From the NCBI GenBank assembly GCA_022508485.1, contig JAFLVD010000014.1, forward strand, positions 1 to 54,131: DNA of 54,131 bases. The letters run 5' to 3'. Below the pieces are notes generated by a model, which was not told where the DNA came from, did not search any database, and worked only from the letters and a program-made list of their open reading frames with translations. Positions 1,549 through 34,984 of the stretch are shown here, piece after piece. The DNA is from Clostridiales bacterium. Its GTDB lineage: Bacteria; Bacillota; Clostridia; Christensenellales; Pumilibacteraceae. The position numbers and the translations under genes were made by a program. Each line of letters starts with the position of its first letter. Within the stretch, counting starts at the first letter, position 1.

Positions 1549-2790
1549 TTATAACGCTTTACATTCGTACACCCAGTCGGGAACGCCGTCTATCTTCGGC
1601 ATTTCGAGAAGGTGCCAGTAGTTGATAAAAAACGATTTTTCCGCCTCCGCCTTGACCGTCTTATTCGTACCGTGCTTTTTGAGTTTAAGCACGTACCCGT
1701 TGTCTTTGACAAGAGTCATTCCGTCGGCAAACACGATATTTTTGTTAAAGTCGATTTCCTTCTTTTTGGCGTTTTTATCGTCCTTTTCTTTTTCGGGAGA
1801 AAGGTCGACGTCGTCGTCGATTACGATTGCAAAGTAGAATTGCGGCTTTCCGCCGGTGTAAACAAGCTGGCCGAAGCCGAGCGAGTGGATATGTATTTTG
1901 TTTTGCGCGTACAACGCTCTTACGTGCGGCACGGTCATTTTAAGCAGCGCCGCCGTGCGTACGAGAAGTATGCCCGTCGTCAAATCCTCGGTCGTAAGAT
2001 GAGGAAAGCGTTCCCCGGCCTTAGGCTTGTCGTCCTCGAACGTGTCGTGCACGGTCCTTAGGTCGTCCTCCGAAAACCCGAATGCAAGCGCCGAGGTGAA
2101 CTGGTTTTTGGATAGCGTCGCGTTTCCGCCGCGGTGGGTAACAATCATGCTGTTCCCGTAAAAAATGAACGCGCCGAAGCCGATATGGTTGGACATCTTG
2201 CTTTTGTTAAGCGGCGACAGATACAGTCCGCTCTCGAAAATCTCGCGCACCGACATGTCGCCGTTAAACTCGAAGTCCATTGCGCGGTTTGTTACAAGGT
2301 CGTTGTAAAACGCCGTTCGGGAAGTGAAAAGGGTAACGGTGCCGTCCTCCTCGCGCTTAAAGTCGTCGAGGCGAATCATGGTGGGGTTTGCTATAAAGCT
2401 TGCGCGGTGCGCTTCCATTATAGCGGCGAAGTTGGCCTGTATTACGGGGTCAAGCTCAAAGTGCTTATATTCGTCGTCCTTAACGTCGTAGGCGGCGCCG
2501 TTGCTTTCAATCGCGTCGTACCAGATATGCGTTTTGCCGCCGCCGATAGAGAGCGGCTTTTTGTAGTACACTACGTCGTAGGTGAAGTTTTCTTTTCCGA
2601 GCTTGATTTTTTCCTCGCGCGCAAACAATACGCCCCGCACTAAATCCGCGGTGATATGGGTTGCCATCAAACCGATTATGCTACCCAAAATCTCGAACTT
2701 CAATCCGTCGTAAAAGAAGTATAAAAGCAGTCCTATTCCGATTAAGAAAACTGCGATTTTAACCCATAAAAATTTCCAGTGGTTTCTCAT
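1549..2790 (-). CDS. Uncharacterised membrane-anchored protein
   Basis: I do not recognise the family. The 413-residue product has two hydrophobic segments close together at the N-terminus (about 8-28 and 33-50), then a large soluble part of about 360 residues without signal-peptide features, so it is probably held in the membrane by a short hairpin and faces the cytoplasm. The soluble part is mixed alpha/beta in feel, with an acidic-basic stretch near 335-352 (DDDVDL then EKEKDDKNAKKK). Its ATG overlaps the stop of the upstream oxidoreductase gene by 4 nt, implying translational coupling. No catalytic motif was recognised. Confidence 0.75.
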   Translation of the reverse strand: MRNHWKFLWVKIAVFLIGIGLLLYFFYDGLKFEILGSIIGLMATHITADLVRGVLFAREEKIKLGKENFTYDVVYYKKPLSIGGGKTHIWYDAIESNGAAYDVKDDEYKHFELDPVIQANFAAIMEAHRASFIANPTMIRLDDFKREEDGTVTLFTSRTAFYNDLVTNRAMDFEFNGDMSVREIFESGLYLSPLNKSKMSNHIGFGAFIFYGNSMIVTHRGGNATLSKNQFTSALAFGFSEDDLRTVHDTFEDDKPKAGERFPHLTTEDLTTGILLVRTAALLKMTVPHVRALYAQNKIHIHSLGFGQLVYTGGKPQFYFAIVIDDDVDLSPEKEKDDKNAKKKEIDFNKNIVFADGMTLVKDNGYVLKLKKHGTNKTVKAEAEKSFFINYWHLLEMPKIDGVPDWVYECKAL

Positions 2791-3698
2791 TTTGCGCTAC
2801 CCGAAAATAAAAGTTTGTGAAGCAGAATTGTGCTTTTTATGTTTGCCGTGTCGTCCGGCAAAAGCGAATAGAACAGGTTTTCGTAGTGCGACGACAGCCT
2901 GTCCGGCACCGCGCAGTCAAAAATAATCTTGCCGTCAAACGAAACGGTCTGCGCCGTGTGGTCTACAAAAAGGGTGCCGCCTTCGCACTCGATAACCGAA
3001 GTTTTTTTGTTGCTCTTTTTCGTCCAGTCGACGGTTATCTCCGCGGTAATTCCGCTCGCGAGGAAAACCTTTTTCGCGTACTTCGGCATGCCGCTTTTGT
3101 CGTCGACAATAACTTCCTCGCTTGTTAGGCGTGCGTCGGATAAGTCTAAAATCTCGTCGAAATAGCTGAGGATGTTTATTCCGCTGTCAATCCAAGCGCC
3201 CATAAGCCCCAAGCGGTCTTGCCTTATAGAGCCGTCGGGCGTGGCGGCGTAATCGTCGCACACGCGAGCGCTTATCGACTTTATTTTGCCGTAGCGGCTT
3301 AGGTTTGCCTTTAAGAACTTCACCTCGTCGGCCGCTTTCCAGTGGAACATGCAGATAAGATTTTTTCTGCGGCTTTTCGCAAACGAAAGGCACTCGTCCA
3401 TTTCATCAAGGCTTCCGAACATCGGCTTTTCGGTAATTACGTCCACGCCCTTACTTAAAAGCTCGCGCGCGACCCGGCCGTGCGCGGCGACGGGCAGTGC
3501 GAGAACAGCCACCTCCGGTTTAAGTTTAAGCGCGTCGTCAAGCTCGGTAAAAAAAGGAACCGAAAACAGCTCGCGCGCGGCGCAGGAGGGGTTGGTGTCC
3601 ACAAGTGCGGTAAGAGCGAGCGTAGAAGAATTGCCAAACCCTTTTACGTAGTGCGTGGCGATAACTCCTCCGCCTACAAGTACAGTAGATTTTTTCAT
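2787..3698 (-). CDS. Gfo/Idh/MocA-family NAD(P)-dependent oxidoreductase
   Basis: The 303-residue product begins with a Rossmann nucleotide-binding segment (VLVGGGVIATHYVKGF) and carries the family's TEKPM motif near residue 95 (EKP contributes the lysine near cofactor and substrate). Family members oxidise or reduce sugars, inositols or sugar derivatives; the substrate cannot be read from sequence. Length is slightly short for the family (330-380). The frame extends 13 codons upstream, but those codons overlap the promoter. The start at 3698 is chosen because it coincides with the predicted transcription start and begins directly before the Rossmann fold. It is divergent from the GH31 gene, which fits sugar metabolism. 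Confidence 0.88.
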   Translation of the reverse strand: MKKSTVLVGGGVIATHYVKGFGNSSTLALTALVDTNPSCAARELFSVPFFTELDDALKLKPEVAVLALPVAAHGRVARELLSKGVDVITEKPMFGSLDEMDECLSFAKSRRKNLICMFHWKAADEVKFLKANLSRYGKIKSISARVCDDYAATPDGSIRQDRLGLMGAWIDSGINILSYFDEILDLSDARLTSEEVIVDDKSGMPKYAKKVFLASGITAEITVDWTKKSNKKTSVIECEGGTLFVDHTAQTVSFDGKIIFDCAVPDRLSSHYENLFYSLLPDDTANIKSTILLHKLLFSGSAK

Positions 3699-3733
3699 AT
3701 ATCCATTATAACACATAACGAAGCATATTTCAA
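3698..3733 (-). promoter_or_regulatory. Sigma-A promoter giving a leaderless transcript of the oxidoreductase operon
   Basis: On the minus strand TTGAAA (3733-3728), a 17-bp spacer and TATAAT (3710-3705) are followed by six bases and the ATG. With +1 seven bases after the hexamer's last base, transcription starts exactly at the A of the start codon. There is no Shine-Dalgarno sequence. Confidence 0.8.
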
Positions 3734-3777
3734 ACATAAATAGTAAAAACCGAAAGCTTTATTTTGGCGCGGTATGA

Positions 3778-3806
3778 TTGACTATGTAAGATAAATATTG
3801 TATATT
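3778..3806 (+). promoter_or_regulatory. Sigma-A promoter of the GH31 gene
   Basis: TTGACT (3778-3783), a 17-bp spacer and TATATT (3801-3806) give a start near 3813 and a leader of about 54 nt. It is divergent from the oxidoreductase promoter; the two -35 boxes are 44 bp apart, so one regulator could act on both. Confidence 0.75.
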
Positions 3807-3866
3807 ATTTCAGTAGGAATTTTGCGGTACGCCGCGCGTTCCCGTAAACCCGACATGGAGAAAAAC

Positions 3867-6419
3867 ATGGAAAACTTCGTTATAGGCAATGTGCGCGTTC
3901 AACTGCTGTCCAAAGACGTTATCCGCGTCGAATACAGCAAGACCGGCACGTTTGAGGACGCGCCGACTTTTTTCGTTCCCGACAGAGATTTTTGCGGCGA
4001 GAAGATAGGCGCAAGCGCGATCGAAACCGATAACGGCACGGCGGTTATAATGGGCGAGCTGTCCGTTTTTGTGCCTAAGGCCGCAAACGGTTTAAAGGGC
4101 GTTACGCTTAACCGTAACGGTCAAACGGTCTACGCATGCCGTACGATAAAAAACAGCGGAGAGCTGCCGCCGCTTAATAAAACTCCGTTCGTGTTTGCGG
4201 TTGCGGACAATCCCCGTATCGTCTGCCCGAACGGCGGTTACTCGGTAAATGGTGAAAAGCCGTATCGCATAACGAAAAACGCGCAGGACTTGTATCTGTT
4301 GGTGTGCCGTAACGACGCCAAAAAGCTCAGGAGTCTGTACGTAGCTCTTACCGGCAGAAACGAAATGGTAAGGCTTTCCACGCTCGGCAACTGGAATTCG
4401 CGCTACTATAAGTACACCCAAGCGGAAGCCGAGGAAATGATAGATACGTATATACGTAAGCGCGTTCCGCTCGACAACATGGTTATAGATACCGACTGGC
4501 GCGAGGCGTGCGACCGCGGCATAGGCTACGACATCAACACAAAGCTTTTCCCCGATATGAAAGGTTTTTTCGACTATGCGCACTCTAAGGGCGTCGAGAT
4601 AATGTTCAACGACCACCCCGAGCCGCAGGCAGGCGCAAAAAGCCTTTTGGACCCCGTCGAAATTGCCTACCGCGAAAAAAAGCTAACCGAAATATTGGAA
4701 CTCGGGCTTGATACCTGGTGGTACGACAGAAACTGGAGTACCGCGCTTATTTCCCCTATAAAGTCCGTCCGTCCCGAAACGCTCGGAATGTACCTTTTCG
4801 AGGAAATCACCAAACACCACTACATGAGAAAGTGCGGAAGCGACAATGCTTACCGCCGGCCGGTTATAATGGCAAACGTGAACAACATTCATAACGGCAA
4901 GTATATAAAAATAAACGATTCTGCGTCCCACCGCTATTCCATTCAGTGGACGGGCGACATTCACTGCCGCAACGAGGATTTATTGCGAGAAATTAAAAAT
5001 CTCGTCAAGGCGACGAATAACTGTATTCCGTACGTCAACTTCGACTGCGGCGGACATATAGGCAATCCCGATAAGGAATTGTATTTAAGGTGGATGAAGT
5101 TCGGCGCGTTTTCGCCCGTTCTCCGTCCGCACTGCACAAACAACGTCAAGGTTTTCAGAGAGCCGTGGAACTACGACGACGAAACGGAAAGCGTGGTAAG
5201 GGAATACGTTAACATGCGGTACAGACTTCTTCCCACTACTTACCGCTACGCATATAATAACTACGCCACCGGCGAGCCTATTTATAAATCGCTCGGCTTT
5301 ACATACCCCGACGACAAGATAAGCCTCGCCTGCGAAAAGCAGTACACGCTGGGCGACGATATCATGGTTGCGCCCGTATACGCCGACGCCGACGCTATTT
5401 CCGTCGTTCCCAAAGCGTGCTTTACCTCGCCCGTAAAAGCGACGTACTACGGCGGCACAAACCTCGAAGGGAAGGCGGTTGCCGTAAAAGAGTATGCGTA
5501 TATCAATCAGGAATACAACAGAACCTCGCCCGTAAAGGAACTTGGGCCTTACGACTATTCCGCCGTGTTCGAGTATAAGCTTAAATTCGATACCGACGTC
5601 GAGCTGTTCGTGTGTAACGACGACGGCACAAGGTTCTACCTCGACGGCGAGCTTACTCTCGACGACTGGACCTTCCACGCCGCGTATCCGCAGAAGGTGG
5701 CGTCGCTTAAAGCCGGAAGGGAATACGCCGTAAAAATGGACTACATGCAGGGCGGCGGCGAGGCGGTCGTAAAGCTTATGTACAAAGCCTCGTCCGAAAA
5801 AACGACGGACAGCGAGGTGAGAGCGCACTCTTTCTATATTCCCGAGGACGGATATATAAACGTATTCGACGGAAAGCGGTACGGCAAGGGCAGGCATACG
5901 GCTAAGTTCGGAATTAAGGACTACCCGATTTTCGTAAGACCGGGATGCGTGCTCGCCCTCGCCAAAAACGCGCAGACCACCGCCGAGCAGATCTGGGACG
6001 CGCTCGCCTTCGATATTTACCCGTCCAAAACGCGCGAGTTTTCTTCCTGCCTTTACGAGGACGACAGACAGACCACGGCGTATAAAGTAGGCGAGTACCG
6101 TACGCAGGGCTATACGCTTTATTACGACGAAAAGCAAAACGCCGTAGTGTTTACGGTCGACAAAGCGGAAGGAAGCTTCGACGGCGCGGATAAATTCGGC
6201 GAAAGAAGCGCGTCGCTTCGCTACCACCTAAGCGCACCGTTAGGCACGCTCGACCGCGTTTATGTAAACGGAAAAGAAGTTCCGTTCGACATTATTCCGT
6301 GCGACAAAGACGCCTATCCGTTCGGCTTTACCGGCGGCGCGCCCGACGGCGATATCGCGGAGGTAAAAATCACGCTCTCGCTCGATAAGCCCACCACGGT
6401 TTTATTTAAGCTTAAATAA
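3867..6419 (+). CDS. GH31-family glycoside hydrolase (alpha-glucosidase/alpha-xylosidase type) with PA14-like insert
   Basis: The 850-residue product has an N-terminal beta-sandwich (about 1-175) and a TIM barrel with the GH31 signature WWYDRNW, nucleophile Asp287. The second signature, HRYSIQWTGD, places the acid/base at Asp364. A PA14-like insert (about 565-655, core DVELFVCNDDGTRFYLDGE) follows in the C-terminal beta region. There is no signal peptide, so the enzyme should act on imported oligosaccharides. Start choice: in-frame codons at 3798 lie within the promoter, and the ATG at 3867 has GGAG seven bases upstream (inside an alternative ATG at 3855). Substrate is unknown; the signature ends NW where many alpha-glucosidases have NEP. 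A 38-nt gap separates the LRR lipoprotein gene. Confidence 0.9.
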   Translation: MENFVIGNVRVQLLSKDVIRVEYSKTGTFEDAPTFFVPDRDFCGEKIGASAIETDNGTAVIMGELSVFVPKAANGLKGVTLNRNGQTVYACRTIKNSGELPPLNKTPFVFAVADNPRIVCPNGGYSVNGEKPYRITKNAQDLYLLVCRNDAKKLRSLYVALTGRNEMVRLSTLGNWNSRYYKYTQAEAEEMIDTYIRKRVPLDNMVIDTDWREACDRGIGYDINTKLFPDMKGFFDYAHSKGVEIMFNDHPEPQAGAKSLLDPVEIAYREKKLTEILELGLDTWWYDRNWSTALISPIKSVRPETLGMYLFEEITKHHYMRKCGSDNAYRRPVIMANVNNIHNGKYIKINDSASHRYSIQWTGDIHCRNEDLLREIKNLVKATNNCIPYVNFDCGGHIGNPDKELYLRWMKFGAFSPVLRPHCTNNVKVFREPWNYDDETESVVREYVNMRYRLLPTTYRYAYNNYATGEPIYKSLGFTYPDDKISLACEKQYTLGDDIMVAPVYADADAISVVPKACFTSPVKATYYGGTNLEGKAVAVKEYAYINQEYNRTSPVKELGPYDYSAVFEYKLKFDTDVELFVCNDDGTRFYLDGELTLDDWTFHAAYPQKVASLKAGREYAVKMDYMQGGGEAVVKLMYKASSEKTTDSEVRAHSFYIPEDGYINVFDGKRYGKGRHTAKFGIKDYPIFVRPGCVLALAKNAQTTAEQIWDALAFDIYPSKTREFSSCLYEDDRQTTAYKVGEYRTQGYTLYYDEKQNAVVFTVDKAEGSFDGADKFGERSASLRYHLSAPLGTLDRVYVNGKEVPFDIIPCDKDAYPFGFTGGAPDGDIAEVKITLSLDKPTTVLFKLK

Positions 6420-6457: not shown

Positions 6458-9400
6458 ATGAATAAAAAATTTGTTACGCTTATCATTACGATACTCGGTA
6501 TCTTCGCTCTTTCGTTTGCGCTTGTCGCCTGCGATAAGCCGAGCGGCGACAGCGGCGACAAGCCGAGCGGCGACGGTGGCAAAGCCTTAAACGGAACGTA
6601 CTACTACTGCGAAAACGACGAGCTCGATTATTCGCTGTACATAACGTTTAAAAACGGAAAGTGGACTGACGACGAAAATCAGTCGGGCGAGTACTCTTTT
6701 TCGGACGACAAGGTTACGCTGTACATCGAAAAGGACGAGTACGCCTCGGGTACGGTCGACGGCGACGATATTACGCTTTACTTTATGGGGGCGGAATGGC
6801 TGTACCGCAAGGGTCCCGATATCGACCCCACCGCGCCCAAAGAAAAAACGCTCGATTATAAATTGAGCGACGACAAGACGCACTACACCGTCAAGGGCAT
6901 AGGCGGACTTACCGGCGACGTAGTCGTTCCCGACGAATACAAGAAAAAGCCGGTTACCGAAATTGCCGAAGGCGCGTTCGCAAATAAAAGCGAGCTTACG
7001 AGTATCGTTATAGGCAACAACGTTACTTCCGTCGGGGAAAAGGCGTTTTATAAATGCGCAAATCTTACGACGGCTACGCTCGGCGAAAGCGTGGACGGGA
7101 TTGCCGCAAGCACCTTCGAAGAGTGCAGGGCGCTCACGACGGTAACAATTCCTTTAAGCGTAAAAAGCATAGGTAAAACCGCGTTTCGCTTTTGCCTTAA
7201 ATTAAAGGATATTTACTATACGGGCTCCGAGTCCGATTGGGCGCAAATCGATTTTTATTACAGCGTCGGATATAACACAATCGAGGTGTGCAATCCTATT
7301 TACGACGGCGCGACTTACATTGTCGGCAACAATACCGCTTCCGTCGAAAACGTAAGCCGCAATCTTTATATCGACGGCGAATTGCTTACCGACGCGGAAA
7401 TCTATAACGCCGATACCGTTAGCCCGTTTGCGTTTTACGGCTACCGCGCTTTAAAGAGCGTTGCGGTTGGCGGCGACGTTCAAGAGATAGGGCAGTACGC
7501 GTTTTACGACTGTGCTTCGCTGGATGAGCTCAGCTTTTCGGGCGACGCGCTAAAAAAGGTATGTAAGGGTGCGTTCTCCTCGTGCGGCAGCCTGCTTCAA
7601 GTATCGCTTCCGAGCGGCTTAAAAGTGATTGACGAATACGCGTTTAATTCGTGCGGCGAGCTTAAATCGGTTAACACGGGCAACGGCGTTGCGGTAATAG
7701 AATACGGCGCGTTTATGAGCTGCGGAAAGCTTAACTCCCTTACGCTCGGAAGATCGGTCGCCGAAATAGGCGAAGCGGCGTTTTACGCCTGCGAAGAGCT
7801 TACCGAGGTTACCATTCCCGAGTCCGTAATATTTATAGGCAAGGACGCGTTTTTCGGAAGCTCTGTTACGAGCGCGAAGTTCGTGAAAAAAGACGGCTGG
7901 ATCGTCAATAAAGACGTGCCGCTCGAAAGCGCTCAGTTAGAGGACGAGGCTAACGCCGCCGCGCTTTTGGTAAACTCCGTATTGATGCAGGGCTATGCCG
8001 ATACCGATTGGGAAAGGCCGACGCTTCAATATATACTCAGCGACGACCAAACGTATTACACCGTTAACAACGTAGGAACGGGGTGCCGCTCGAATATTGT
8101 CATTCCGGCGACGTATAACGATAAGCCGGTAAAAGCCATAGCGGACAGCGCGTTCAGCGGCTGTTCGGCGCTTATGAGTATTACAATCCCCGACAGCGTA
8201 ATATCGATAGGAAGATATGCTTTTAATAATTGCAGCGGACTTAGTAGCATAACTATTCCTAACGGCGTCGAAACTATCGGCGAGTTTGCGTTTTTCGGTT
8301 GCAGGTCGCTGTCCTCTATCATTGTAGGCACGGGCTTAAAAGAGATAGGTTACAGCGCGTTTGTAGGCTATCTGCCAGCCAAAAAGGTTTACTACACGGG
8401 CGATATAGCAGGCTGGTGCCAAATAGAGGGGCTTGATGACTTAATTAACTCCGAAACAACGCTTTATATCGGCGGAGAACCGCTGTCTGGAAACCTTGTC
8501 ATTCCGAACGGCGTTACGGCTATTTCCTACTACGCGTTTGCGTATAACCGCCTCGTTACGAGCGTTACTCTTCCTGCCACTCTCACAAGTATCGGCGGAT
8601 CGGCGTTTAGTAACTGCGATATAGACACCGTTTACTTTGAGGGCGATCTTTCCAAGTGGTGCGAAGTAGAGGGACTTAACAATCTTGTTTCAAACGAAAC
8701 GACGGTGTATATCGGAGGAAAGGAGTTATCGGGTAATGTGGTTATCCCGAGCGGCGTAACCGCAATCAATTCCGGCGCGTTATATTTCGCCGATAGGGTT
8801 ACGAGCGTTACTATTCCGAATAGCGTAACGTTTATCGGAAGCGACGCATTCAACGATAATATAACAACTTTCCGCTACGAGGGAAGTACAGAGGACTTGT
8901 TCGGCGTTTCGGGCTTAAACAATATTATGAAAAAAGAACTTACGCTGTATATTAACGGCGAAAAGTTTAACGGTAGTATCGTAGTCCCGAGCGGAATTAC
9001 GGAAATTGCCGATTACCAATTTTCCTCTTGCTTTGCTATTACAAGCGTCGTTATCCCCGACAGCGTAGTGAGTATCGGCGATTCGGCGTTCTATTATTGC
9101 CGCTATCTTACGAGCGCTACGATAGGAAACGGCGTAAAGACGATAGGCCCTCGAGCTTTTTACGTCTGCGACAGCCTTACGACGCTAACATTAGGTAACA
9201 GTCTGGAAGAGATTGGCGAAAATGCGTTTTACCTCTGCGACAGCCTTAAAAGCGTCGTTCTTCCCGACAGCGTAGTGAGTATCGGCGCAGAGGCGTTTGA
9301 CGGTTGCGACAGCCTTGAAAGCGTTACCTTCGGAAGCAGTTTAAAGACAATCGGAAACGAAGCGTTTGCATATTGCGGCGCGCTTAAAAGCATAACCCTT

Positions 9401-9715
9401 CCCGACGGCTTAACTACTATCGGAAGCAAGGCGTTTTACGGATGCTCGTCGATTGAGAACGTAGTCATTCCCGACAGCGTAACGGCAATTTACGAGCGCA
9501 CATTCACGTGCGCCGCCCTCACGACCGTTACGATAGGTAAGGGTGTGCAAAGCATCGGCGCTTACGCCTTCACCAACGACGGCAGGAGGGTAACCTTAAC
9601 CTATACCGGCACTTATAACGAGTGGATAAACGTCAAGAAAAATTCCAACTGGACAAGCGGAATGGACAGCTACGTTATGTACGTAGAGGGTGAGATAATC
9701 TCGCAAAGACCGTAA
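6458..9715 (+). CDS. Large LRR_5 (BspA-type) surface lipoprotein
   Basis: The 1085-residue product starts with a lipoprotein signal peptide (lipobox LVAC, Cys25), then a short Gly/Ser/Asp spacer with a KPSGD repeat. A small beta-rich domain (about 45-125) follows; the rest is mostly LRR_5 repeats of 22-24 residues with the core SVTSIGxxAFxxCxxLTSVxIPxSV. Three or four shorter stretches of type YIGGEPLSGNLVIPxGVT interrupt the array. It is expected to be a lipid-anchored, outward-facing protein-binding scaffold. AAGGAG lies 9 nt before the ATG. The gap to GH31 is only 38 nt with no terminator, so the two are probably cotranscribed; a terminator follows at 9738. Family certain, ligand unknown. 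Confidence 0.92.
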   Translation: MNKKFVTLIITILGIFALSFALVACDKPSGDSGDKPSGDGGKALNGTYYYCENDELDYSLYITFKNGKWTDDENQSGEYSFSDDKVTLYIEKDEYASGTVDGDDITLYFMGAEWLYRKGPDIDPTAPKEKTLDYKLSDDKTHYTVKGIGGLTGDVVVPDEYKKKPVTEIAEGAFANKSELTSIVIGNNVTSVGEKAFYKCANLTTATLGESVDGIAASTFEECRALTTVTIPLSVKSIGKTAFRFCLKLKDIYYTGSESDWAQIDFYYSVGYNTIEVCNPIYDGATYIVGNNTASVENVSRNLYIDGELLTDAEIYNADTVSPFAFYGYRALKSVAVGGDVQEIGQYAFYDCASLDELSFSGDALKKVCKGAFSSCGSLLQVSLPSGLKVIDEYAFNSCGELKSVNTGNGVAVIEYGAFMSCGKLNSLTLGRSVAEIGEAAFYACEELTEVTIPESVIFIGKDAFFGSSVTSAKFVKKDGWIVNKDVPLESAQLEDEANAAALLVNSVLMQGYADTDWERPTLQYILSDDQTYYTVNNVGTGCRSNIVIPATYNDKPVKAIADSAFSGCSALMSITIPDSVISIGRYAFNNCSGLSSITIPNGVETIGEFAFFGCRSLSSIIVGTGLKEIGYSAFVGYLPAKKVYYTGDIAGWCQIEGLDDLINSETTLYIGGEPLSGNLVIPNGVTAISYYAFAYNRLVTSVTLPATLTSIGGSAFSNCDIDTVYFEGDLSKWCEVEGLNNLVSNETTVYIGGKELSGNVVIPSGVTAINSGALYFADRVTSVTIPNSVTFIGSDAFNDNITTFRYEGSTEDLFGVSGLNNIMKKELTLYINGEKFNGSIVVPSGITEIADYQFSSCFAITSVVIPDSVVSIGDSAFYYCRYLTSATIGNGVKTIGPRAFYVCDSLTTLTLGNSLEEIGENAFYLCDSLKSVVLPDSVVSIGAEAFDGCDSLESVTFGSSLKTIGNEAFAYCGALKSITLPDGLTTIGSKAFYGCSSIENVVIPDSVTAIYERTFTCAALTTVTIGKGVQSIGAYAFTNDGRRVTLTYTGTYNEWINVKKNSNWTSGMDSYVMYVEGEIISQRP

Positions 9716-9833: not shown

Positions 9834-9862
9834 TTGACAGTCGAATAAAAAAGTGGTATAAT
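9834..9862 (+). promoter_or_regulatory. Full-consensus sigma-A promoter giving a leaderless transcript
   Basis: TTGACA (9834-9839), a 17-bp spacer and TATAAT (9857-9862) match consensus in both boxes. Six bases later comes ATG (9869-9871), so +1 falls on its A. No Shine-Dalgarno sequence precedes the gene. The promoter drives the four-gene operon to 15904. Confidence 0.88.
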
Positions 9863-9868
9863 TTTTAT

Positions 9869-10870
9869 ATGTACGGAATTTACGGCGAGATAATAGCCGC
9901 CGCGGAAAAGGCGGCGGAGGAATGTTCTCAAGCGGAAGAGCTTTTGGAATACCCCGAGGTTCAAGCGGACAAGGCGTATTATCTTTCCGTTCTGTCTAAG
10001 TACAACAAGCTTAATTCTATTGCGGACAAGCTCGCAAAGCTGAAAAAGCTTTTAAGCTCGGAAAAGTCGGCGGCGGCGCTTATCCCCGAATGCAACGACG
10101 CCGAGCGCGACGAACTATTCGAGGAAATTTCGGCGATAAAACGCGACGCCGCGAGGCTTGCCTCTCTTTTGTCGGACGAGCTTGGATGCAAGCACATAGT
10201 AGAGCGCGCGCTGCTTCGCTTTAAGTTTACCGCCGTTTCCTCTAAGCTCGGCGTGCCGTTTGCCGCCATGATAAAGGATTACGTCATTTCTCGCGGCGGC
10301 GCGGTCGAGGACGAAAGGACGGAGTGTACGGTAAGCGGCGAGGTCCGCGGCGTTTCGTTTATTGCGGAAGGCGAGGACGTTTTATCTCGGCTTATTCCGC
10401 TTACCGGCGCGCACAAGGTTTTTGTAACCGGCGGAAAGGCGGAAGAGCTTTGCTTTGCCGTAACGAGCGCCGAGGAAAGGCTGACGGTCTCGGACGACGA
10501 ACTGAAAATAACGGTAACCCATTCGAGCGGCGCCGGCGGTCAGCATATTAACAAGGTGGAAACGGCGGTGCGCGTAACGCATATTCCCACGGGGCTTTCG
10601 GTCGTTTGCCAGGACGAGAGAAGTCAGCTCGAAAACAAAAAGCGCGCAATCGAGACAATAAAAAAGCGGCTTAACCTATCGCACGAAAAGAGCGAAAAAA
10701 GCCGTATCGAGGCGGATATATATTCGCAATATAAAAAGAAGAGCACGCCTATATCTTTCGATTACGCGTCCAAAACAATGACGGATACGCGGTTGAAAGC
10801 GTTTTCCGCCGTTCCGTTTCCGCTCGAATCGCCGCGCGCGTACATCGACGCACTAAACGCATTATGTTAG
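9869..10870 (+). CDS. Divergent class-I release-factor-like protein: GGQ kept, PxT stop-reading motif lost
   Basis: The 333-residue product resembles RF1. It has a helical N-terminal domain (about 1-110) and a shortened domain 2. The peptidyl-tRNA hydrolysis domain carries SSGAGGQHINKVETAVRVTH (GGQ at 223-225) and then CQDERSQLENKKRA. The GGQ loop normally triggers peptide release in the ribosomal peptidyl-transferase centre. Where RF1 has HRVQRVPxT, this protein reads AHKVFVTGGK, so the PxT tripeptide aligns with Gly-Gly-Lys at about 188-190; RF2's SPF is also absent. It may therefore release peptides without reading a stop codon, as rescue factors do. An upstream in-frame start is ruled out by the promoter. 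The gene overlaps the helicase start by 7 nt. Confidence 0.85.
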   Translation: MYGIYGEIIAAAEKAAEECSQAEELLEYPEVQADKAYYLSVLSKYNKLNSIADKLAKLKKLLSSEKSAAALIPECNDAERDELFEEISAIKRDAARLASLLSDELGCKHIVERALLRFKFTAVSSKLGVPFAAMIKDYVISRGGAVEDERTECTVSGEVRGVSFIAEGEDVLSRLIPLTGAHKVFVTGGKAEELCFAVTSAEERLTVSDDELKITVTHSSGAGGQHINKVETAVRVTHIPTGLSVVCQDERSQLENKKRAIETIKKRLNLSHEKSEKSRIEADIYSQYKKKSTPISFDYASKTMTDTRLKAFSAVPFPLESPRAYIDALNALC

Positions 10871-13233
10871 TTAACTTTACCCTCGACATGCAAAAAATCG
10901 CTCTGTCGTCAAGAAAGAGGTTTTATAAGACAGAGGGGTTTATAAGCTCGACGCGAAAAACCGCCGGTGTGGACGCGTTCGTTTCGCGTGTAGCGGAAGG
11001 CATTTTCAAATCGAATATTTCTATCCCGGAAGGCGGCGGCGAGGTTAAAGTAAGCGACGGGCTTTACACGCTGTACGTATGCCGAAAGGACGTCTACTCG
11101 GGCGATATCGTGTTTTACGGGTTCGAGAGCGGAAACGTAGGAGACGGCGGCGTGGACAGATCGCTTCAAGCCTATTTTTCGCAATCGACCGTTTCGGTTA
11201 CTTTGGGCGAGGCGAAAAATAAGGTAAAGCAAGACGACTTGGTAAGACTGTACCTCGTGTCCGACTCGGACGGCGCGGTTAACTTCCCGTACCTTAACGA
11301 CACCCAGCGGAAGATAGTGGAAACCGAGGACTCCAATATGCTCGTCCGCGGCGTTGCCGGCAGCGGCAAGACCAACGTGTGCGTCGAAAAAATCGTGTAC
11401 TGCGCGTGCAGGTCGTACCGCGGCTCGGCGCTCTACACAACCTTTTCTCGCGGACTGTTAACCGAAACGAAAAACCGAGTGGGGCTGTTCGTAAAAAACA
11501 TAAACGATTTTATTTCCGCATTCGAGCGCGGCGCGGTCGTGTTTTTGGACGACGATCACAAAAAGGCGGTCGAAAATAAGCTGGGCATTTTGTTCTCGGT
11601 GGACGACGACGGCGAGATTATTTCCGCGTTGAAGCGAATTTCCGCGTACCTATCCGAAAAGGTCGATTACTTTCTTATAGAGGATATCTACGCCGACTAC
11701 TACGAGGAGGCGCGCGCCGCCGGCGAGAGCGTGTTCAATAACGAGTATCTCGGCGGCGGAATAAGTCCGCACATAACGGGCGCAATCGATAAGATAAAAA
11801 ACGTTTCGACGGAAATTATTTATAAAGAAATATACGGCATGATTTTCGGAAAGTACGAGCTTTCTTCGCCCCGAAAAATGATGACTAAGGACGAGTACGT
11901 TTCCGCGCGGCGCGACAGCTTTACGCCGCGTGAGTGCGAGATTATCTATTCGGTGGCGGTCGATTACGCCGAGTTCATGGAAAAGCGCGGATACCTCGAC
12001 AACAATCTCATGAGTCGCGCCGTTATGGAAAAGGTCGACTCCCCCAAGTACTCGATAGGCGTTATCGACGAGGTTCAGGACTTTACGCAGGTAAACCTTG
12101 CGCTTATGAAAACGCTTTGCCGCAAGCTGTTTTGCGTGGGCGACGCGCTTCAAATGATAAACCCGTCGTACTTCGGCTTCGGGTACTTAAAGCGGCTTAT
12201 GTACGGCGACGTTACGGGCGTGAGCGAGCTTAAACATAACTACCGCAGTACGCAAAAGTTAGAGCAAATCGCCGAAAAGCTCGGCGAAATGAATATCAGC
12301 CGCTTCGGAACGCACAGCTTTGTCATATCGGGGAAAAGCGTTCCCTCGCCGCTTGACAGCGAGGCGGTGTTCGTCAAGGACAAGGGTTTTTCCGACATGC
12401 TTAAAAACAAGCGGTTCGAAAACCTGACGGTCGTCGTCGGCTCGCAAAAGAAGAAAGAGCGGCTTAAAAAATCGCTCGGCAAGATTGAGGTTTTGACCGT
12501 CGCCGAGATAAAGGGTTTAGAGCGCGGCACCGTTATCCTCGTGGATATTTTAAGCGACAACGCCGACAAATGGCGGCGGCTTAACGAAATGTCGCTTAAC
12601 CGCAAAACCGCCGACGAAAACTCGGTGTACAGATACTACTTTAATCTGTTTTACGTGGGCGTTTCGCGCGCAAGGCAGTATCTTGTCGTTGCGGAATCCG
12701 ATTACCCCAAGTTTTTCGACAAGCTTTTCGACGAGTGCTTCGTCCGCAAAAACCGCGACGGCGCGATAGCGTTTTTAAAGAATATCGCCGGGCGCATAGA
12801 GCTTGACGACGAAGAGTTTATCGAGCGAATCGAATCTTTCTGCGCGCTCGAGCAGTACGACAACGCGCGCTCTGCCGCCGACAGACTTTCCTCGGACGAG
12901 CTGCGAGAGAAAAAGCTCGTGTATATTTCCGTTCACGAAAAGTATCTGCGCTACGGCGCGTACCGCGACGCCGGTATAGAATACTGGCGGCACGGCATGG
13001 ACGCCGAGGCGAGGGAATGCTTTACGCGCTCGGGCGACGAAAAGCTGTTTCCGCTCATGGACGCCTGTCTTAAAGGCGGAAGCTCGCTCGACCCCGAAAT
13101 AGTCAGGTTTTACACGCTCGTCGATGACAACGACGTCGCCAAAAACATAATACTCGAAACACTTAATAACGACTGCAAAGACATATCCGCCGCAATAAAG
13201 TCGGCAAACGCGATTTTGAGGAGAAAATCATGA
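10864..13233 (+). CDS. UvrD/Rep-like superfamily 1 helicase or ATPase with long C-terminal helical region
   Basis: The 789-residue product has an unrecognised N-terminal region (about 1-135), then SF1 motifs: Q-motif area LNDTQRKIV, Walker A GVAGSGKTN (about 161-169), Walker B DEVQD (402-406), motif IV-like HNYRST (about 459-464) and motif VI YVGVSRARQ (about 597-605). The stretch between Walker A and B is long and poorly conserved. After motif VI a helical, TPR-like region of about 170 residues continues to the end. UvrD-type enzymes move on or unwind nucleic acid with ATP. Housekeeping UvrD/PcrA lacks this tail, and the gene context is unusual, so this is a specialised member. It overlaps both neighbours (7 nt upstream, 4 nt downstream). 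Confidence 0.88.
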   Translation: MLVNFTLDMQKIALSSRKRFYKTEGFISSTRKTAGVDAFVSRVAEGIFKSNISIPEGGGEVKVSDGLYTLYVCRKDVYSGDIVFYGFESGNVGDGGVDRSLQAYFSQSTVSVTLGEAKNKVKQDDLVRLYLVSDSDGAVNFPYLNDTQRKIVETEDSNMLVRGVAGSGKTNVCVEKIVYCACRSYRGSALYTTFSRGLLTETKNRVGLFVKNINDFISAFERGAVVFLDDDHKKAVENKLGILFSVDDDGEIISALKRISAYLSEKVDYFLIEDIYADYYEEARAAGESVFNNEYLGGGISPHITGAIDKIKNVSTEIIYKEIYGMIFGKYELSSPRKMMTKDEYVSARRDSFTPRECEIIYSVAVDYAEFMEKRGYLDNNLMSRAVMEKVDSPKYSIGVIDEVQDFTQVNLALMKTLCRKLFCVGDALQMINPSYFGFGYLKRLMYGDVTGVSELKHNYRSTQKLEQIAEKLGEMNISRFGTHSFVISGKSVPSPLDSEAVFVKDKGFSDMLKNKRFENLTVVVGSQKKKERLKKSLGKIEVLTVAEIKGLERGTVILVDILSDNADKWRRLNEMSLNRKTADENSVYRYYFNLFYVGVSRARQYLVVAESDYPKFFDKLFDECFVRKNRDGAIAFLKNIAGRIELDDEEFIERIESFCALEQYDNARSAADRLSSDELREKKLVYISVHEKYLRYGAYRDAGIEYWRHGMDAEARECFTRSGDEKLFPLMDACLKGGSSLDPEIVRFYTLVDDNDVAKNIILETLNNDCKDISAAIKSANAILRRKS

Positions 13234-13946
13234 ACGACAATTCCGTAAAAGAACTGATTGAAAGCTTTATCTCGTACCGCAATCTCATTACGCCCGTCAA
13301 GGACAGCCTTCACAACGTAAGCGTAACCTACGCCGAGATTTTGGAAGATCTTAACGCGCTGAACAGAAGCTTTTCGGGCGGCACGGCGGACAGACTGGAA
13401 AAAGTGCATTCCGCGCTCGCCGCGCAGGCAAAGAGCGGTCAAGAGCTTAACCGCAGGATTGACGAGTACGCGCAGTCGGGCGAAAAATACGCAAAGGCCG
13501 TAACGGAAATGTATTCGCGCTTTTCGTCCGTCGTGGAAAAAATCGACGCGCTGAGCGAGATAGAAAATAACGCGCGCGCTCAGATAGAAAAAATCGACTC
13601 GCTAATCGCGGAAAAGACGGCGTCGTACGACCTTAAAGGGCTTCAAAAATCGCTGGACGGCTACAACGTAAACGTCGAAAAAATAAGCGACTTTATCAAC
13701 AAGGACGTCGGCGCGGTGTTAAAGCAAAACGCCGAAAAGATAGAATCCATTCGTAAGGAAAACGAGGAACTAAGTAAGCTCGTCGCCAAACAGAGCGACG
13801 ACATCGCCACGCTAACTACCATGTTTACCGAGACGACCGCGCTGCTTAAAAAAGTGGTCGAGGGCAGCACAGTCAACGAGCAATACTTGTTTGACGTTCT
13901 CGACAAGTGGGCGGCGGACAGAAAGGTTAAGGTCAAAAAGGATTAG
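13230..13946 (+). CDS. Coiled-coil protein of unknown function
   Basis: The 238-residue soluble product is almost wholly predicted helix, with heptad-like spacing of hydrophobic residues from about 50 to 220 and many Glu/Lys/Ser/Ala. The C-terminus (DKWAADRKVKVKKD) is basic. No signal peptide, membrane segment or catalytic motif is visible. Its ATG overlaps the helicase stop (ATGA), with AGGAGA upstream, so translation is coupled. The position between a helicase and a membrane-anchored protein suggests a bridging role, but that is inference from order only. Confidence 0.82.
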   Translation: MNDNSVKELIESFISYRNLITPVKDSLHNVSVTYAEILEDLNALNRSFSGGTADRLEKVHSALAAQAKSGQELNRRIDEYAQSGEKYAKAVTEMYSRFSSVVEKIDALSEIENNARAQIEKIDSLIAEKTASYDLKGLQKSLDGYNVNVEKISDFINKDVGAVLKQNAEKIESIRKENEELSKLVAKQSDDIATLTTMFTETTALLKKVVEGSTVNEQYLFDVLDKWAADRKVKVKKD

Positions 13947-13951
13947 CGTTT

Positions 13952-15904
13952 GTGGCAAGGGTAGACGAAAAACGATTACTCGACGTAATCATAAACGACG
14001 ACGCGGCGGCGTTTAACGCGCTTAACGGACAAACTCGGCTCGAAAAATATCGGCTGGGCAGATTTCCCGTGCTGTCGCTCATGTATCTTTTTTCGTCTAA
14101 AAAAATCCTTGCCGAACACGAAAAAGAGTTTATAGCCGTTTCCTCGCACCGGGAGTCTTTTTGCGCCGCGGAACCGGCGAGCGTACTCGCATTGTTTTCC
14201 AAAAAAGCCGGTAAGTGCTTACGGCTGTATTTTGACGCGGTCGTTACGCCTATCGAAATGCTTCTTATACTCGATAAAACGAATAAGGTTAAAAAGCTTT
14301 ATCCGCTTGTAGGCGTAACGGACGAGGTAAAATCTCGGCTTAAAGCGATTTATTATATTAAGTACTCGCTCGGTATAGAGTTTAAGGATGACGGCATAGT
14401 CATCGACCGCAGACCGCTTTCCCGAAGCGAAAAGAAAAAAATCGCTATCGCCGTTTCCGCCGCCGCGCTCGTAGCCGCGGTGTCCGTCGTAACGCCCGTA
14501 TCGGTCGTGTCGTATCTTAACAAGTACGGAATAGCCGTGTCGAGCGCCGAGCAAATCGACTTTACCAAACAAAGAACGTATGCGCTTAAAAGCGACGTTG
14601 TTATCCCGAGGAACTATTCGGTAAAAAGCACCGCATGCAATATTATAGGCGGCGGACACAAGCTCGTTTTGGAGGGCGGCGCGTCGCTCGGCAATTTCAG
14701 CGGCAGTATGAGTAATCTTACAGTGGAAACGCAGGGCGCGCCTATATTTACCTCGTGTTCGGGCCGCGCCGTGCTCAAAGATATTACCGTGTCCGTTTCC
14801 GCAGACCTCGATATTAAAAGCGACCATGCGTTCGTTACGGTAAATAATTACGGCACGCTCGACGGAATAACCGTCAACGTGGAGGGGACCGTTCGCGCTT
14901 CGTCGAAGGACGAAGGGGAAGAGCTTGTTTTGGGCGGCGTTGCGGCGTATAACGCGTACTCGAACAGCTCGACGTACGGCAAGATTAAAAACTGCAAGGT
15001 TAACTATACAAGCTTTTATCTCGAAGGGGAAAAGACGGTCAACGCCTCGTTCGGCGGAATAGCCGGCGTCAACAACGGAACGGTAGAGGACTCGGTCGTA
15101 AGCGGAAGCGTGGAAGCGGATACATTCGATATCGCCGGGGCGTGCTACGTGAATAATTCTTCTCTTACAAGGATAGAAAGCGCGGTGAACTTATCGCAAA
15201 AGTCGGAAAACGAGGAGTGGAGTCCGCTCGTCGCCGGCGTGGTCAACGAAAACGGCGGACTGGTCGAGTACTGTAAAAGCACCGGCAGCCTTTCGGTTAC
15301 GGGCGCGGACTTTGCTATCTGCGGCGGAATAGCCGGTCAGTCGTACGGCAGAACGGCGTATTGCTATTCGAGTAGCGATATAACCGTAACCGCCGAGTAC
15401 GCCTATGTCGGCGGAATTTACGGCATGAGCCGGACGGCTTCGGATAACTTCTACGTCTACCTCGGCTTTGCCGATCACTGTTTGAGCGAGAGCAAGATAT
15501 ACGCAAGCTTAGGCGAGGGAAATTCGTGCGTGGGCGGTATCGGCGGACTTGTTCAGCAGCTTAATCTTTACGGCACCTTCTACGGCGGCGGCGTTACGAA
15601 CAGTATTTATCTTGGCGAAATATCGGGCGAGTTTAACTACCGCGGAAGCGTAGTCGGCGTGTGCGGCGCCAACGTTTACGAGGCCAATTCGTACATGTCG
15701 GGCGACGAGGAGGTAGTCAACTTCGAAGGAAATTACTTCCTCGAAGGCAGCGGTACGTCCTTCGGCGCTAAGGCGACCACCGACGAAATATTTTTGCGCG
15801 TCGACGGCAAGGGCGCCACCGCCGCGCCGCTTACGGAAATAAAACAAACCGACGTGTATAAAGAAATCATCGAAAAACTCGAACCGATTAAAATGAAAAA
15901 ATAA
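13952..15904 (+). CDS. Single-pass membrane protein with GLUG-like beta-helix ectodomain
   Basis: The 650-residue product has a cytoplasmic helical domain (about 1-160) and one membrane helix at about 161-189, preceded by RSEKKK, so the N-terminus should be inside. The large outside part is of right-handed beta-helix type. Repeats such as GGIAGVNNGTVEDSVVSG and GGIAGQSYGRTAYCYSS match the GLUG pattern seen in surface adhesins. The start is GTG (13952), five bases after the coiled-coil gene stop. It is the last gene of the operon, ended by the hairpin at 15915. The inside domain could contact the three cytosolic operon partners; ligand unknown. Confidence 0.82.
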   Translation: MARVDEKRLLDVIINDDAAAFNALNGQTRLEKYRLGRFPVLSLMYLFSSKKILAEHEKEFIAVSSHRESFCAAEPASVLALFSKKAGKCLRLYFDAVVTPIEMLLILDKTNKVKKLYPLVGVTDEVKSRLKAIYYIKYSLGIEFKDDGIVIDRRPLSRSEKKKIAIAVSAAALVAAVSVVTPVSVVSYLNKYGIAVSSAEQIDFTKQRTYALKSDVVIPRNYSVKSTACNIIGGGHKLVLEGGASLGNFSGSMSNLTVETQGAPIFTSCSGRAVLKDITVSVSADLDIKSDHAFVTVNNYGTLDGITVNVEGTVRASSKDEGEELVLGGVAAYNAYSNSSTYGKIKNCKVNYTSFYLEGEKTVNASFGGIAGVNNGTVEDSVVSGSVEADTFDIAGACYVNNSSLTRIESAVNLSQKSENEEWSPLVAGVVNENGGLVEYCKSTGSLSVTGADFAICGGIAGQSYGRTAYCYSSSDITVTAEYAYVGGIYGMSRTASDNFYVYLGFADHCLSESKIYASLGEGNSCVGGIGGLVQQLNLYGTFYGGGVTNSIYLGEISGEFNYRGSVVGVCGANVYEANSYMSGDEEVVNFEGNYFLEGSGTSFGAKATTDEIFLRVDGKGATAAPLTEIKQTDVYKEIIEKLEPIKMKK

Positions 15905-15914
15905 AAATGAAGAA

Positions 15915-15945
15915 TTAAAAAGGACCGCAAGCGGTCCCTTTTTTA
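15915..15945. terminator. Bidirectional terminator between convergent operons
   Basis: GGACCGC-AA-GCGGTCC (15922-15937) is flanked by an A-run on the left and a T-run on the right, so it can end transcription from both the beta-helix gene (plus) and the tryptophanase gene (minus). Confidence 0.85.
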
Positions 15946-15968: not shown

Positions 15969-17345
15969 TCACAGCGGCGCGAGTTTTGCGGTAAAGTGGC
16001 GCAGGATAGGCGGTTCCTCTACTATCTTGTACCCCTTTATCTTTTTGGCGCGTTCCTTTATGTTTATAAGCGCGTCGGCAATTACGTCGAGGTGGGACTG
16101 CGTGTAAACGCGCCGAGGTATAGCAAGCCGAGTAAACTCGAATTCCGCCTCTAACTGCTTGCCGGTGTCGGGGTCGTTTCCGAGCATGAACGAGCCGATA
16201 TCGCACGCGCGTATTCCGGCCTCTCTGTACAGCTCTATGCTAAGCGCCTGCGCCGGGAATTCGTAGTAGGGGATATGGGGAAGAAGCTTTTTCGCGTCGA
16301 CAAATACGGCGTGGCCGCCGACCGGGGTCTGGAACGGAATTCCGCCGTCCGAGAGCCTATCCGCAAGGTACTGCATTTGTCCTATACGGTAGCGCAGGTA
16401 GTTTTCGTCGATACCCTCGTCAAGCCCACGCGCAAGCGCCTCGATATCGCGGCCGGACATTCCGCCGTATGTAGTAAAGCCCTCGAAGGAAATCGTGCGC
16501 TGTTTTATCTTTTCGAAAAGCGCCTTGTCTCGACAGCCTATAAGTCCGCCCATATTGACTATGGCGTCTTTTTTGGCGCTCATGGTAAAGCAGTCGGCGC
16601 CCTCGAAGGTATCCTTTACGATATCGGTTATCGAGCTCGACTTAAATTCCTTTTCGCGCTGCTTGACAAAGAACGAGTTTTCGGCGTACCGCGCGGCGTC
16701 TATCATAAACGTAATTCCGTGTTTGTGCGCGATGTCGCGCGCCGCCCTGACGTTTTCCACCGATACCGGCTGACCGCCGGCAGAGTTGTTCGTTATCGTC
16801 ATTATGATAACGCCGACGTTTTCCGCGCCCAAGTCCTTTATGTATTTTTCGAGCCGGACTAAATCCATATTGCCCTTAAAGTCGTAGTAGGAAGTGGTGT
16901 CGAGCGCCTCTTTTACCACGCAGTCGATTGCGCGAGCGCCGGCAAGCTCGACGTGCGCGCGCGTCGTGTCGAAGTGCATATTGCTTATGGCGTACTTTTT
17001 GCCTTCGAGCAGTATCGGCAAAAGCACCTTTTCCGCGGCGCGGCCCTGGTGCACGAGCTGTATGTGCGGCATACCGAATATGCGAGTCGCCGCCTCTTGA
17101 ACCTTGTAGTAGCAGTCCGCGCCTGCATACGACTCGTCGCCGAGCATAACGCCCGACCACTGCGCCGAGCTCATTGCGCCCGTTCCGCTGTCGGTGAGAA
17201 GGTCGATGTAAACGTCGCGCGAGGCGAGGTTAAACACGTTGTAGGACGCGGCTTTAATCTTTTGCTCGCGCTCTTTTGCGGACAGAATCTTAATCGGCTC
17301 GACGCTCTTAATCCTAAAAGGTTCGGGGAAATAAATAGGTTTCAT
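15969..17345 (-). CDS. tnaA: Tryptophanase (L-tryptophan indole-lyase)
   Basis: The 458-residue PLP enzyme has normal family length. It splits tryptophan to indole, pyruvate and ammonia. The PLP lysine is Lys259 in MSAKKD, and IDAAR (Asp216) and [10 protein letters not shown] are present. Two positions separate it from tyrosine phenol-lyase. The residue aligned with the lyase's substrate-binding Arg381 is Ile in CDIGSF. Near the C-terminus it has RHFTAKL with His450, where tyrosine phenol-lyase has Phe. One oddity is HQGRAAE, where both families usually have HQGRGAE. No tnaC-like leader or tryptophan permease is adjacent. It lies 38 nt downstream of the SGNH lipoprotein gene and may share its transcript. 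Confidence 0.92.
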
Positions 17346-34430: not shown

Positions 34431-34984
34431 TGAGCGATAACACGAAGCAATCTTTTACATCGATCGAGGATAAAATAAAACGGTTTTTCGTTTCCCTCGG
34501 AGGAAAGCTTAAAGCGCGCGGCGCGGGATTTTACCTTTTGCTTTTCGTCGTTTTATTGAGCTTTGCCGTGCCGTTCGTTTACATGCGCGGATTTTTAAAC
34601 ACCGAGTACATAGGCGTCTGGGCAATTATACTTCCGTTTTTTACCGTCGCCGCGTTTGTTATGGTGTTCTTTAAAAAGACGGCAAGATACGCGCCGTTTG
34701 TAATGTTCGGAATAGTGCTTGCGGCGTTTCTCGTGTTTGTCAAAACGTCGTACATGCATCTTTCCACCGCATTCTTCGGCGGCGTAACGGGCAATGTTTT
34801 TGTAAAAGCCGGATTTTCCTTTTCGTTCTGCACAATCGCGTACGTAACAAATATATTGGTTTGCATAACGGCGATGTTCGTTAAGCAGTACCGCGGCGAA
34901 AAGGACTACTACACCGACGTTAAAGCCGAGTCGGTGGCGGAAATCGAAATAACGACGGAGGAGGCGACAAATGAGCAGAGGTAA
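34430..34984 (+). CDS. Four-helix membrane protein of unknown function
   Basis: The 184-residue product has a basic N-terminus (about 1-32), four hydrophobic segments (about 33-52, 62-82, 88-106, 125-150) and an acidic, Glu/Thr-rich cytoplasmic tail. No family was recognised. The start overlaps the stop of the discoidin lipoprotein gene (TGATG) and the end overlaps the giant GH3 gene by 14 nt, so it is tied to both in translation. It could be a membrane partner of the GH3 protein. Confidence 0.82.
   Translation: MSDNTKQSFTSIEDKIKRFFVSLGGKLKARGAGFYLLLFVVLLSFAVPFVYMRGFLNTEYIGVWAIILPFFTVAAFVMVFFKKTARYAPFVMFGIVLAAFLVFVKTSYMHLSTAFFGGVTGNVFVKAGFSFSFCTIAYVTNILVCITAMFVKQYRGEKDYYTDVKAESVAEIEITTEEATNEQR

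Follow-up and report, generated by a model that had tools for sequence, protein, structure and literature searches.

A recurrent four-gene operon in clostridial genomes that sets a predicted third-class release-factor paralogue beside a helicase, a coiled-coil protein and a beta-helix membrane protein

Why should genes for a release-factor-like protein (RF), a superfamily 1 (SF1) helicase (HEL), a coiled-coil protein (CC) and a membrane protein with a beta-helix (MEM) share one operon? The question is raised by a 54,131-nucleotide (nt) contig, JAFLVD010000014.1, from a Clostridiales bacterium of the family Pumilibacteraceae (assembly GCA_022508485.1; this whole stretch is called the window hereafter), in which RF, HEL, CC and MEM follow one another head to tail on the forward strand (9869–15904), the first two junctions being overlaps of 7 and 4 nt and the last a gap of 5 nt. 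An earlier note, made from the letters of the window, had proposed that the four genes work as a unit and had suggested a surface sensor that signals to a nucleic-acid and ribosome-acting module, for instance in phage defence. Re-reading of the genes bore out the coordinates of the cluster with its overlaps and gap (Table 1), and the four genes stand together far beyond chance.

The same four-gene order was found in 14 of 101 genomes, a sample made up of the window's own genome and 100 relatives. Many of the bacteria that share the set are uncultured inhabitants of the gut. HEL and CC each occurred in the identical 14 genomes and MEM in those 14 plus two weak matches, and an RF-like gene stood upstream in the neighborhoods fetched from the 14 genomes; in one of them (G019) the set is divided between two contigs and in another (G050) the end of MEM lies on a separate contig. 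A CC profile gave 73 loci in GTDB genomes, some of them on the same contigs as in the 14, with the labels Clostridia, Clostridiales, Clostridiaceae, Eubacteriales, Bacillota, Christensenella or plain bacterium. HEL and MEM were each present at 71 of these loci, the missing copies corresponding to contig ends. RF was present at 64, in 63 cases at most 210 nt from HEL and in one case 2.8 kb away (L166, on a G022 contig); two open reading frames fill this interval, which is also seen at L090 of G022 and is the sole such long gap among the 64 loci. Seven of the nine loci without RF start at a contig edge and two (L150 and L151) do not, so that of the 66 loci with enough sequence to hold an upstream RF, 64 have one. 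The RF and HEL genes overlap in 45 of 64 cases and the HEL and CC genes in 49 of 71, most commonly by 4 nt. Because the order repeats across genomes, chance clustering is rejected; the genome search revealed repeated co-occurrence of the four genes, not merely scattered homologues.

The RF protein contains the Pfam RF-1 domain (E 5.5e-27) with a sub-threshold PCRF match, and it is a third copy in a genome that also holds RF1 and RF2. It differs from these as follows: First, the GGQ signature is present in all 64 operon RFs, and the PxT or SPF motif that reads the stop codon is absent from every one of them (0/64) while present in 21 of 21 canonical copies (20 RF1 and one RF2). These 64 exclude a canonical RF1 gene (L112:15-788), which lies ~4.8 kb upstream of the loopless RF of the L112 operon; L018, the operon copy of G022, was not counted either. 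Second, the distance from the GxH landmark to GGQ is 50–51 residues in canonical copies and 37–47 in 59 of the 64 operon RFs; of the other five, two read 32 (L100 and L152, with the landmark probably misplaced), one 50, one 63 owing to an insert, and one could not be measured. Third, in a quick tree of 80 sequences with several long branches and with classes set by PxT or SPF, a subset of 32 operon RFs fell on one side of a branch supported by a Shimodaira–Hasegawa-like approximate likelihood ratio of 99 (SH-aLRT), apart from 33 RF1 and 15 RF2. At last, the window RF scored below the NCBIfam cut-offs of prfA (104.7 versus 423.25 bits), prfB (99 versus 370), prfH (82.6 versus 166.65) and ArfB (44.7 versus 100). 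The missing motif, the scores, the tree and the presence of both RF1 and RF2 in the genome rule out an ordinary RF1 or RF2, and by these sequence comparisons the operon RF is a third class beside them. Ten of the 11 columns invariant over 49 RF copies lie within the GGQ domain. A catalyst kept with its reader lost is as expected of a codon-independent hydrolase, which is the activity that we infer for RF. Loopless RF copies also occur away from the operon or in altered settings: L150 is contig C29 of G670 (8000 of 8000 letters identical), and this genome carries a loopless RF on contig C16; L151 belongs to G821, which has one on contig C88; in G813 a loopless RF lies apart from CC on a different contig with other genes adjoining; and in G798 one adjoins a helicase of the operon kind.

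The distribution of the operon is patchy. CC was found in 64 of 396 genomes of the order, with a single match each, in nine families, and a HEL profile at E 1e-30 matched, among 398 genomes of the phylum, the own genome and seven partial hits only (L173–L179). The latter lie in open frames of 862–1203 residues, and both that were translated are other, larger SF1 helicases, one with C-terminal ankyrin repeats and the other with TPR repeats; the ankyrin-repeat protein has weak ParE/YoeB-like matches at its N-terminus and perhaps belongs to a related toxin-helicase family. In seven genomes of families f3 and f6, HEL is 67–71% identical to that of the window; the identity falls to 38–41% in three genomes that belong to the window's own family but to two other genera. 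For RF1 the corresponding values are 50–58% to the seven genomes and 59–60% to two of the three own-family genomes, G032 having given no RF1. RF1 and HEL identities in further genomes are 62% and 62% (G797, f20), 54–56% and 45% (two f25 genomes), and 56% and 39% (one f17 genome). RF1 is only one marker and resolves these genomes poorly, so the HEL contrast carries the argument for transfer. These identities suggest that the whole operon has passed from family to family, with ancient duplication and loss as a possible alternative; to judge from the same comparisons, the four genes stay together even where host relatedness gives no explanation. The proposed joint working of the four genes is strongly supported by the kept order, the frequent 4-nt overlaps, the signs of joint horizontal transfer and the occurrence of loopless RF even where it is not beside HEL.

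The start of the RF gene suggests a leaderless mode of expression. In the window only 6 nt separate the −10 box from the ATG of RF, from which a leaderless transcript is predicted. Among 63 RF copies (the window and 62 loci), with starts picked by fit to the family model, the −10 box ends 5–7 nt before the ATG in 37 and exactly 6 nt before it in 36; a Shine–Dalgarno-like motif precedes none of these 37 starts and five of the other 26. The same test gave a leaderless-type start for one of 66 HEL, none of 71 CC and none of 71 MEM genes, the single HEL being that of L151, a locus with no RF upstream, so that HEL comes first in the operon. Under a stricter promoter rule applied to 1,117,458 bases, 28 of 31 placements before RF fell at 6 nt, compared with six of 63 before other ATG frames of at least 150 codons, a count that includes the L151 HEL and takes nested ATGs separately. 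RF copies at L133–L135 look to have a leader with a Shine–Dalgarno-like motif, and the predicted leaderless RF transcript is thus not universal but confined to the clade that includes the window and to a few other clades. Scans for promoters and terminators as a class did not exceed shuffled sequence (5 promoters versus 6.1 expected; 11 terminators versus 14.8 expected), and the operon promoter is credible because it is conserved in relatives, not from the scan itself. According to excerpts of two papers, translation of leaderless mRNAs persists under kasugamycin and they start on 70S ribosomes (PMC4929434, PMC9031893). Escape from blocked initiation may be the reason for the leaderless start of the operon. 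A second leaderless-type start in the window belongs to an oxidoreductase-like gene (GFO_IDH_MocA; 2787–3737, reverse strand), where TGTTATAAT stands 6 nt before an internal ATG at 3698.

HEL matches the Pfam UvrD helicase family (3.7e-13), and with its UvrD-like fold and motifs I–VI it belongs to superfamily SF1A. Motifs I, III, IV and V are present in 67 of 67 full-length copies, motif II in 65 and motif VI, under a strict pattern, in 58. In a VIA-align re-comparison of the Foldseek list, which also served for MEM, the top fold match of HEL was Rep (26.8), with UvrD and PcrA mostly at 24–27, followed by HelD (20–23), the RNA/DNA helicase nsp13 (18–21) and Schlafens (18–20). By sequence HEL is none of the nearest ones, as it reached at most 45.7 bits against the UvrD, PcrA and Rep NCBIfam equivalogs, with cut-offs above 900, and 28.8 bits against HelD, with a cut-off of 419. 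Some SLFN11/14 alignments in the whole-model comparison begin at model residue 22–25, an observation that bears on whether a Schlafen linker domain precedes the helicase. A RelE/ParE-like fold of the N-terminal domain is a lead only: the succession of helices and strands in the model hints at it, and one more distant helicase gave weak ParE/YoeB matches (E 0.1–0.13). Profile comparison failed to bear it out (E 0.75 and 0.37), the N-termini of four operon helicases had no Pfam match, and a PDB sequence search with the N-terminus of another distant helicase returned no match.

CC has no Pfam family over the cut-off. For MEM, Pfam gave a sub-threshold GLUG match and no protease domain. Its model (mean predicted local distance difference test score, pLDDT, 93.7) contains a cytosolic helical domain, a transmembrane helix and an outside beta-helix, and the right-handed beta-helix fold is borne out by the model and by the structural matches, a list filled by beta-helix. 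A transmembrane helix was found in 51 of 51 MEM copies, and lysine and arginine are richer before it than after it in 70 of 70. By the model and the charge rule, the N-terminus of MEM is predicted to be inside with the helical domain, and the beta-helix outside. These results uphold the earlier note, which described MEM as an envelope protein whose beta-helix lies outside and which has a further domain in the cytosol; something ankyrin-like about the cytosolic domain is an impression only.

The reading that we favor, tentatively and with somewhat less than even confidence, is that the four proteins form a membrane-linked, codon-independent module for ribosome release or rescue. MEM would anchor or trigger the complex at the membrane, its outer beta-helix perhaps reading a surface ligand or stress; CC may bridge the inner domain of MEM to HEL; HEL would pull the mRNA or remodel the stalled ribosome; and RF would hydrolyze the peptidyl-tRNA in the emptied A site or on a split 50S subunit, with no stop codon read. 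The leaderless start might let RF and the overlapping HEL gene be translated when normal 30S initiation fails. Gene order and co-occurrence are what point to a link among the four proteins, and the nucleic-acid and ribosome-acting module of the earlier note stands as far as the intact catalytic motifs reach, the GGQ of RF and the motor of HEL, but no further. Several observations weigh against the rescue module. SmpB is present in 92 of the 101 genomes and accompanies the operon in each of its 14 hosts (as fragments in G050), which means that these hosts already have an ordinary rescue route. The closest folds to HEL, namely Rep, UvrD and PcrA, are DNA helicases, and nothing in HEL itself points to action on RNA or ribosomes. 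RF evolves fast outside the GGQ domain, with copies of 208–354 amino acids, and 26 of the 63 RF copies do not show the leaderless arrangement, although the starts of some of these may be misplaced. The idea that the operon replaces trans-translation is ruled out by SmpB in all 14 operon genomes. A transmembrane system in which a surface signal at the beta-helix would lead to codon-blind release by a third-class RF and an SF1 helicase, expressed without a leader and giving a direct line from the surface to termination, seems to us possible but rather unlikely.

If RF were an effector and not a rescuer, the operon could serve abortive defense, with MEM detecting an attack at the surface, and RF and HEL stopping translation by indiscriminate release of nascent chains. 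Its patchy, single-copy and apparently horizontal occurrence at variable chromosomal places would suit such a role, as would the greater variability of the MEM ectodomain (30% mean pairwise identity, compared with 38% in the cytosolic domain), and a leaderless start would permit expression during translation stress. However, with CC as the sole query no match was found in IMG/VR, PLSDB or phage records, no flanking gene family is common to more than 10 of 74 loci, and PADLOC called no defense system from the four proteins. In PADLOC the best match of HEL was to GajB, which is generic to SF1, none of the four proteins matched a GajA model, and CC had seven weak matches, the best to DruC (8.6e-6), which we judge typical of coiled coils. 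Single parts do have phage kin, since in PHROGs RF matched RF-1-domain families (best E 1.8e-25), HEL one helicase family (4.9e-28) and CC, weakly, a tape-measure family (1.7e-5). The surface sensor and the phage defense suggested earlier thus found no backing in the flanking genes, the CC searches or PADLOC. A conflict or stress role would be consistent with the patchy, apparently horizontal occurrence of the operon but is not proved by it, and we consider abortive defense unlikely.

Distinctly unlikely in our view is secretion quality control, in which MEM would be an anchor and not a sensor, and the module would clear ribosomes jammed while making or inserting envelope proteins. The N-in topology, the better conserved cytosolic domain of MEM and the giant surface-type proteins made by the host would agree with it; however, a distribution of this kind is odd for housekeeping, and a mere anchor would not need a large ectodomain. 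Even more doubtful is the possibility that HEL and CC act on DNA or RNA polymerase in the manner of UvrD or HelD, with the RF-like protein recruited for another purpose. The best fold matches (Rep/UvrD/PcrA and HelD) and the GajB match would favor this, but GGQ lies within the invariant core of the RF copies, loopless RF is kept even when it does not adjoin HEL, and the scores against the UvrD, PcrA and HelD models are far under their cut-offs. That RF is just a spare release factor of the ordinary kind, in a cluster that arose by chance or is loosely linked, might be read from the RF-1 domain homology but is scarcely credible, given that none of the 64 operon copies has the decoding motif and that the order repeats at 73 loci.

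Table 1 Features of the operon in the window
Feature	Position	Strand	Basis
Promoter TTGACA-17-TATAAT with extended TG, predicted to place +1 at about ATG 9869	9834..9862	+	12/12 consensus bases; −10 at 6 nt kept in many relatives
RF, putative third-class release-factor paralogue, GGQ kept, without stop-codon-reading motif, 333 amino acids (aa)	9869..10870 (ATG)	+	RF-1 domain, motif counts, tree
RF GGQ catalytic motif, residues 223–225	10535..10543	+	Family alignment
HEL, UvrD-like SF1A helicase of 789 aa; N-terminal domain of its own (~1–130), helical C-terminal region (~631–789)	10864..13233	+	Pfam, model, motifs
HEL Walker A GVAGSGKT, residues 163–170	11350..11373	+	67/67 full-length relatives
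HEL Walker B/motif II DEVQD, residues 402–406	12067..12081	+	65/67 relatives
CC, helical/coiled-coil protein of 238 aa, conserved motifs at both termini	13230..13946	+	Without family over cut-off
MEM, predicted cytosolic helical domain (1–151), one transmembrane helix, outside right-handed beta-helix	13952..15904 (GTG)	+	Transmembrane prediction, charge, model
MEM transmembrane-containing helix, model helix 158–192	14423..14527	+	Transmembrane prediction, model
MEM beta-helix ectodomain, residues 194–625	14531..15826	+	Model, structural matches
Terminator-like G+C-rich hairpin and T run, after MEM and before the convergent gene	15922..15937	+	Scan

Downstream of the operon lies a convergent beta-eliminating lyase gene (15969–17345, reverse strand), a homologue of which also adjoins the operon in G015 and G011. 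Genes for BspA-type leucine-rich-repeat proteins are found nearby at 6458–9715 (forward) and 73–1527 (reverse), and a GH31 glycoside hydrolase with a PA14 domain is encoded at 3798–6419 (forward). The window also contains two giant open reading frames of ~2,300 amino acids each (34971–41888 and 41928–48944), one with GH3 domains in its first 1,010 amino acids and the other with InlB-type repeats in its first 1,024.

If the favored rescue module is real, bacteria would own a third, codon-blind class of release factor tied to a motor and a membrane protein, and the cell surface would have an unexplored route to control or rescue translation. The conserved leaderless start on a release-factor gene would then be a natural case of a gene placed to escape blocked initiation. 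The set is defined by four proteins, and it predicts that peptides would be released independently of the codon, with GGQ required and HEL assisting.

RF, the motor and the beta-helix each belong to a known superfamily, and no described system that we know of or found has more than one of the parts of the operon. In open-access full-text literature we found no description of such an operon or RF paralogue. The rescue module may be a minimal counterpart of a helicase splitter combined with a release factor, as in E. coli HrpA or the eukaryotic RQT with Vms1/ANKZF1, or may instead resemble PrfH–RtcB with a motor replacing the ligase. RQT/ASCC pairs with Vms1, and the helicases of HrpA and RQT/ASCC belong to other families than HEL; these systems have no membrane part. 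What they share with the proposed module, in the excerpts cited, is the idea of a helicase that clears stalled ribosomes together with a chain-freeing hydrolase (PMC9938168, PMC7447978, PMC5989216), and an excerpt of a further paper mentions HrpA as a ribosome splitter (PMC11633108). HEL is set apart from the UvrD/Rep/PcrA, HelD and Schlafen helicases by its own N-terminal domain, helical C-terminus and fixed partners, and from Gabija (GajAB) by the lack of a GajA partner, with RF, CC and MEM constant instead. In contrast to the GLUG-type beta-helix of IgA1 proteases, that of MEM comes after a transmembrane helix and a cytosolic domain and is accompanied by no protease domain.

Among the release factors themselves, RF1 and RF2 share with the operon RF the GGQ domain, much of the layout and a sub-threshold PCRF match, but the operon RF lacks PxT/SPF, forms a separate tree group and coexists with both. 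According to the sections consulted of Burroughs and Aravind (2019), the bacterial GGQ factors are RF1, RF2, ArfB and PrfH (PMC6514570); nowhere does that paper use the word "helicase". ArfB/ICT1 and mtRF-R (C12orf65) are likewise GGQ hydrolases without a codon-recognition domain; they carry charged C-terminal extensions, however, and the excerpts cited describe no operon in which they are joined by a helicase and a membrane protein (PMC8786322, PMC6514570). The nearest known system in spirit, as far as its excerpted description goes, is PrfH/RFH–RtcB (PMC9223846), which likewise combines an accessory class-I release-factor paralogue, a sporadic, horizontally spread operon and a nucleic-acid enzyme as partner (PMC6514570, PMC9223846). 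PrfH has no N-terminal domain and pairs with an RNA ligase, whereas the operon RF apparently keeps an N-terminal domain in most copies, as judged from length and the sub-threshold PCRF match, lacks the decoding motif, and has as its constant partners not RtcB but HEL, CC and MEM.

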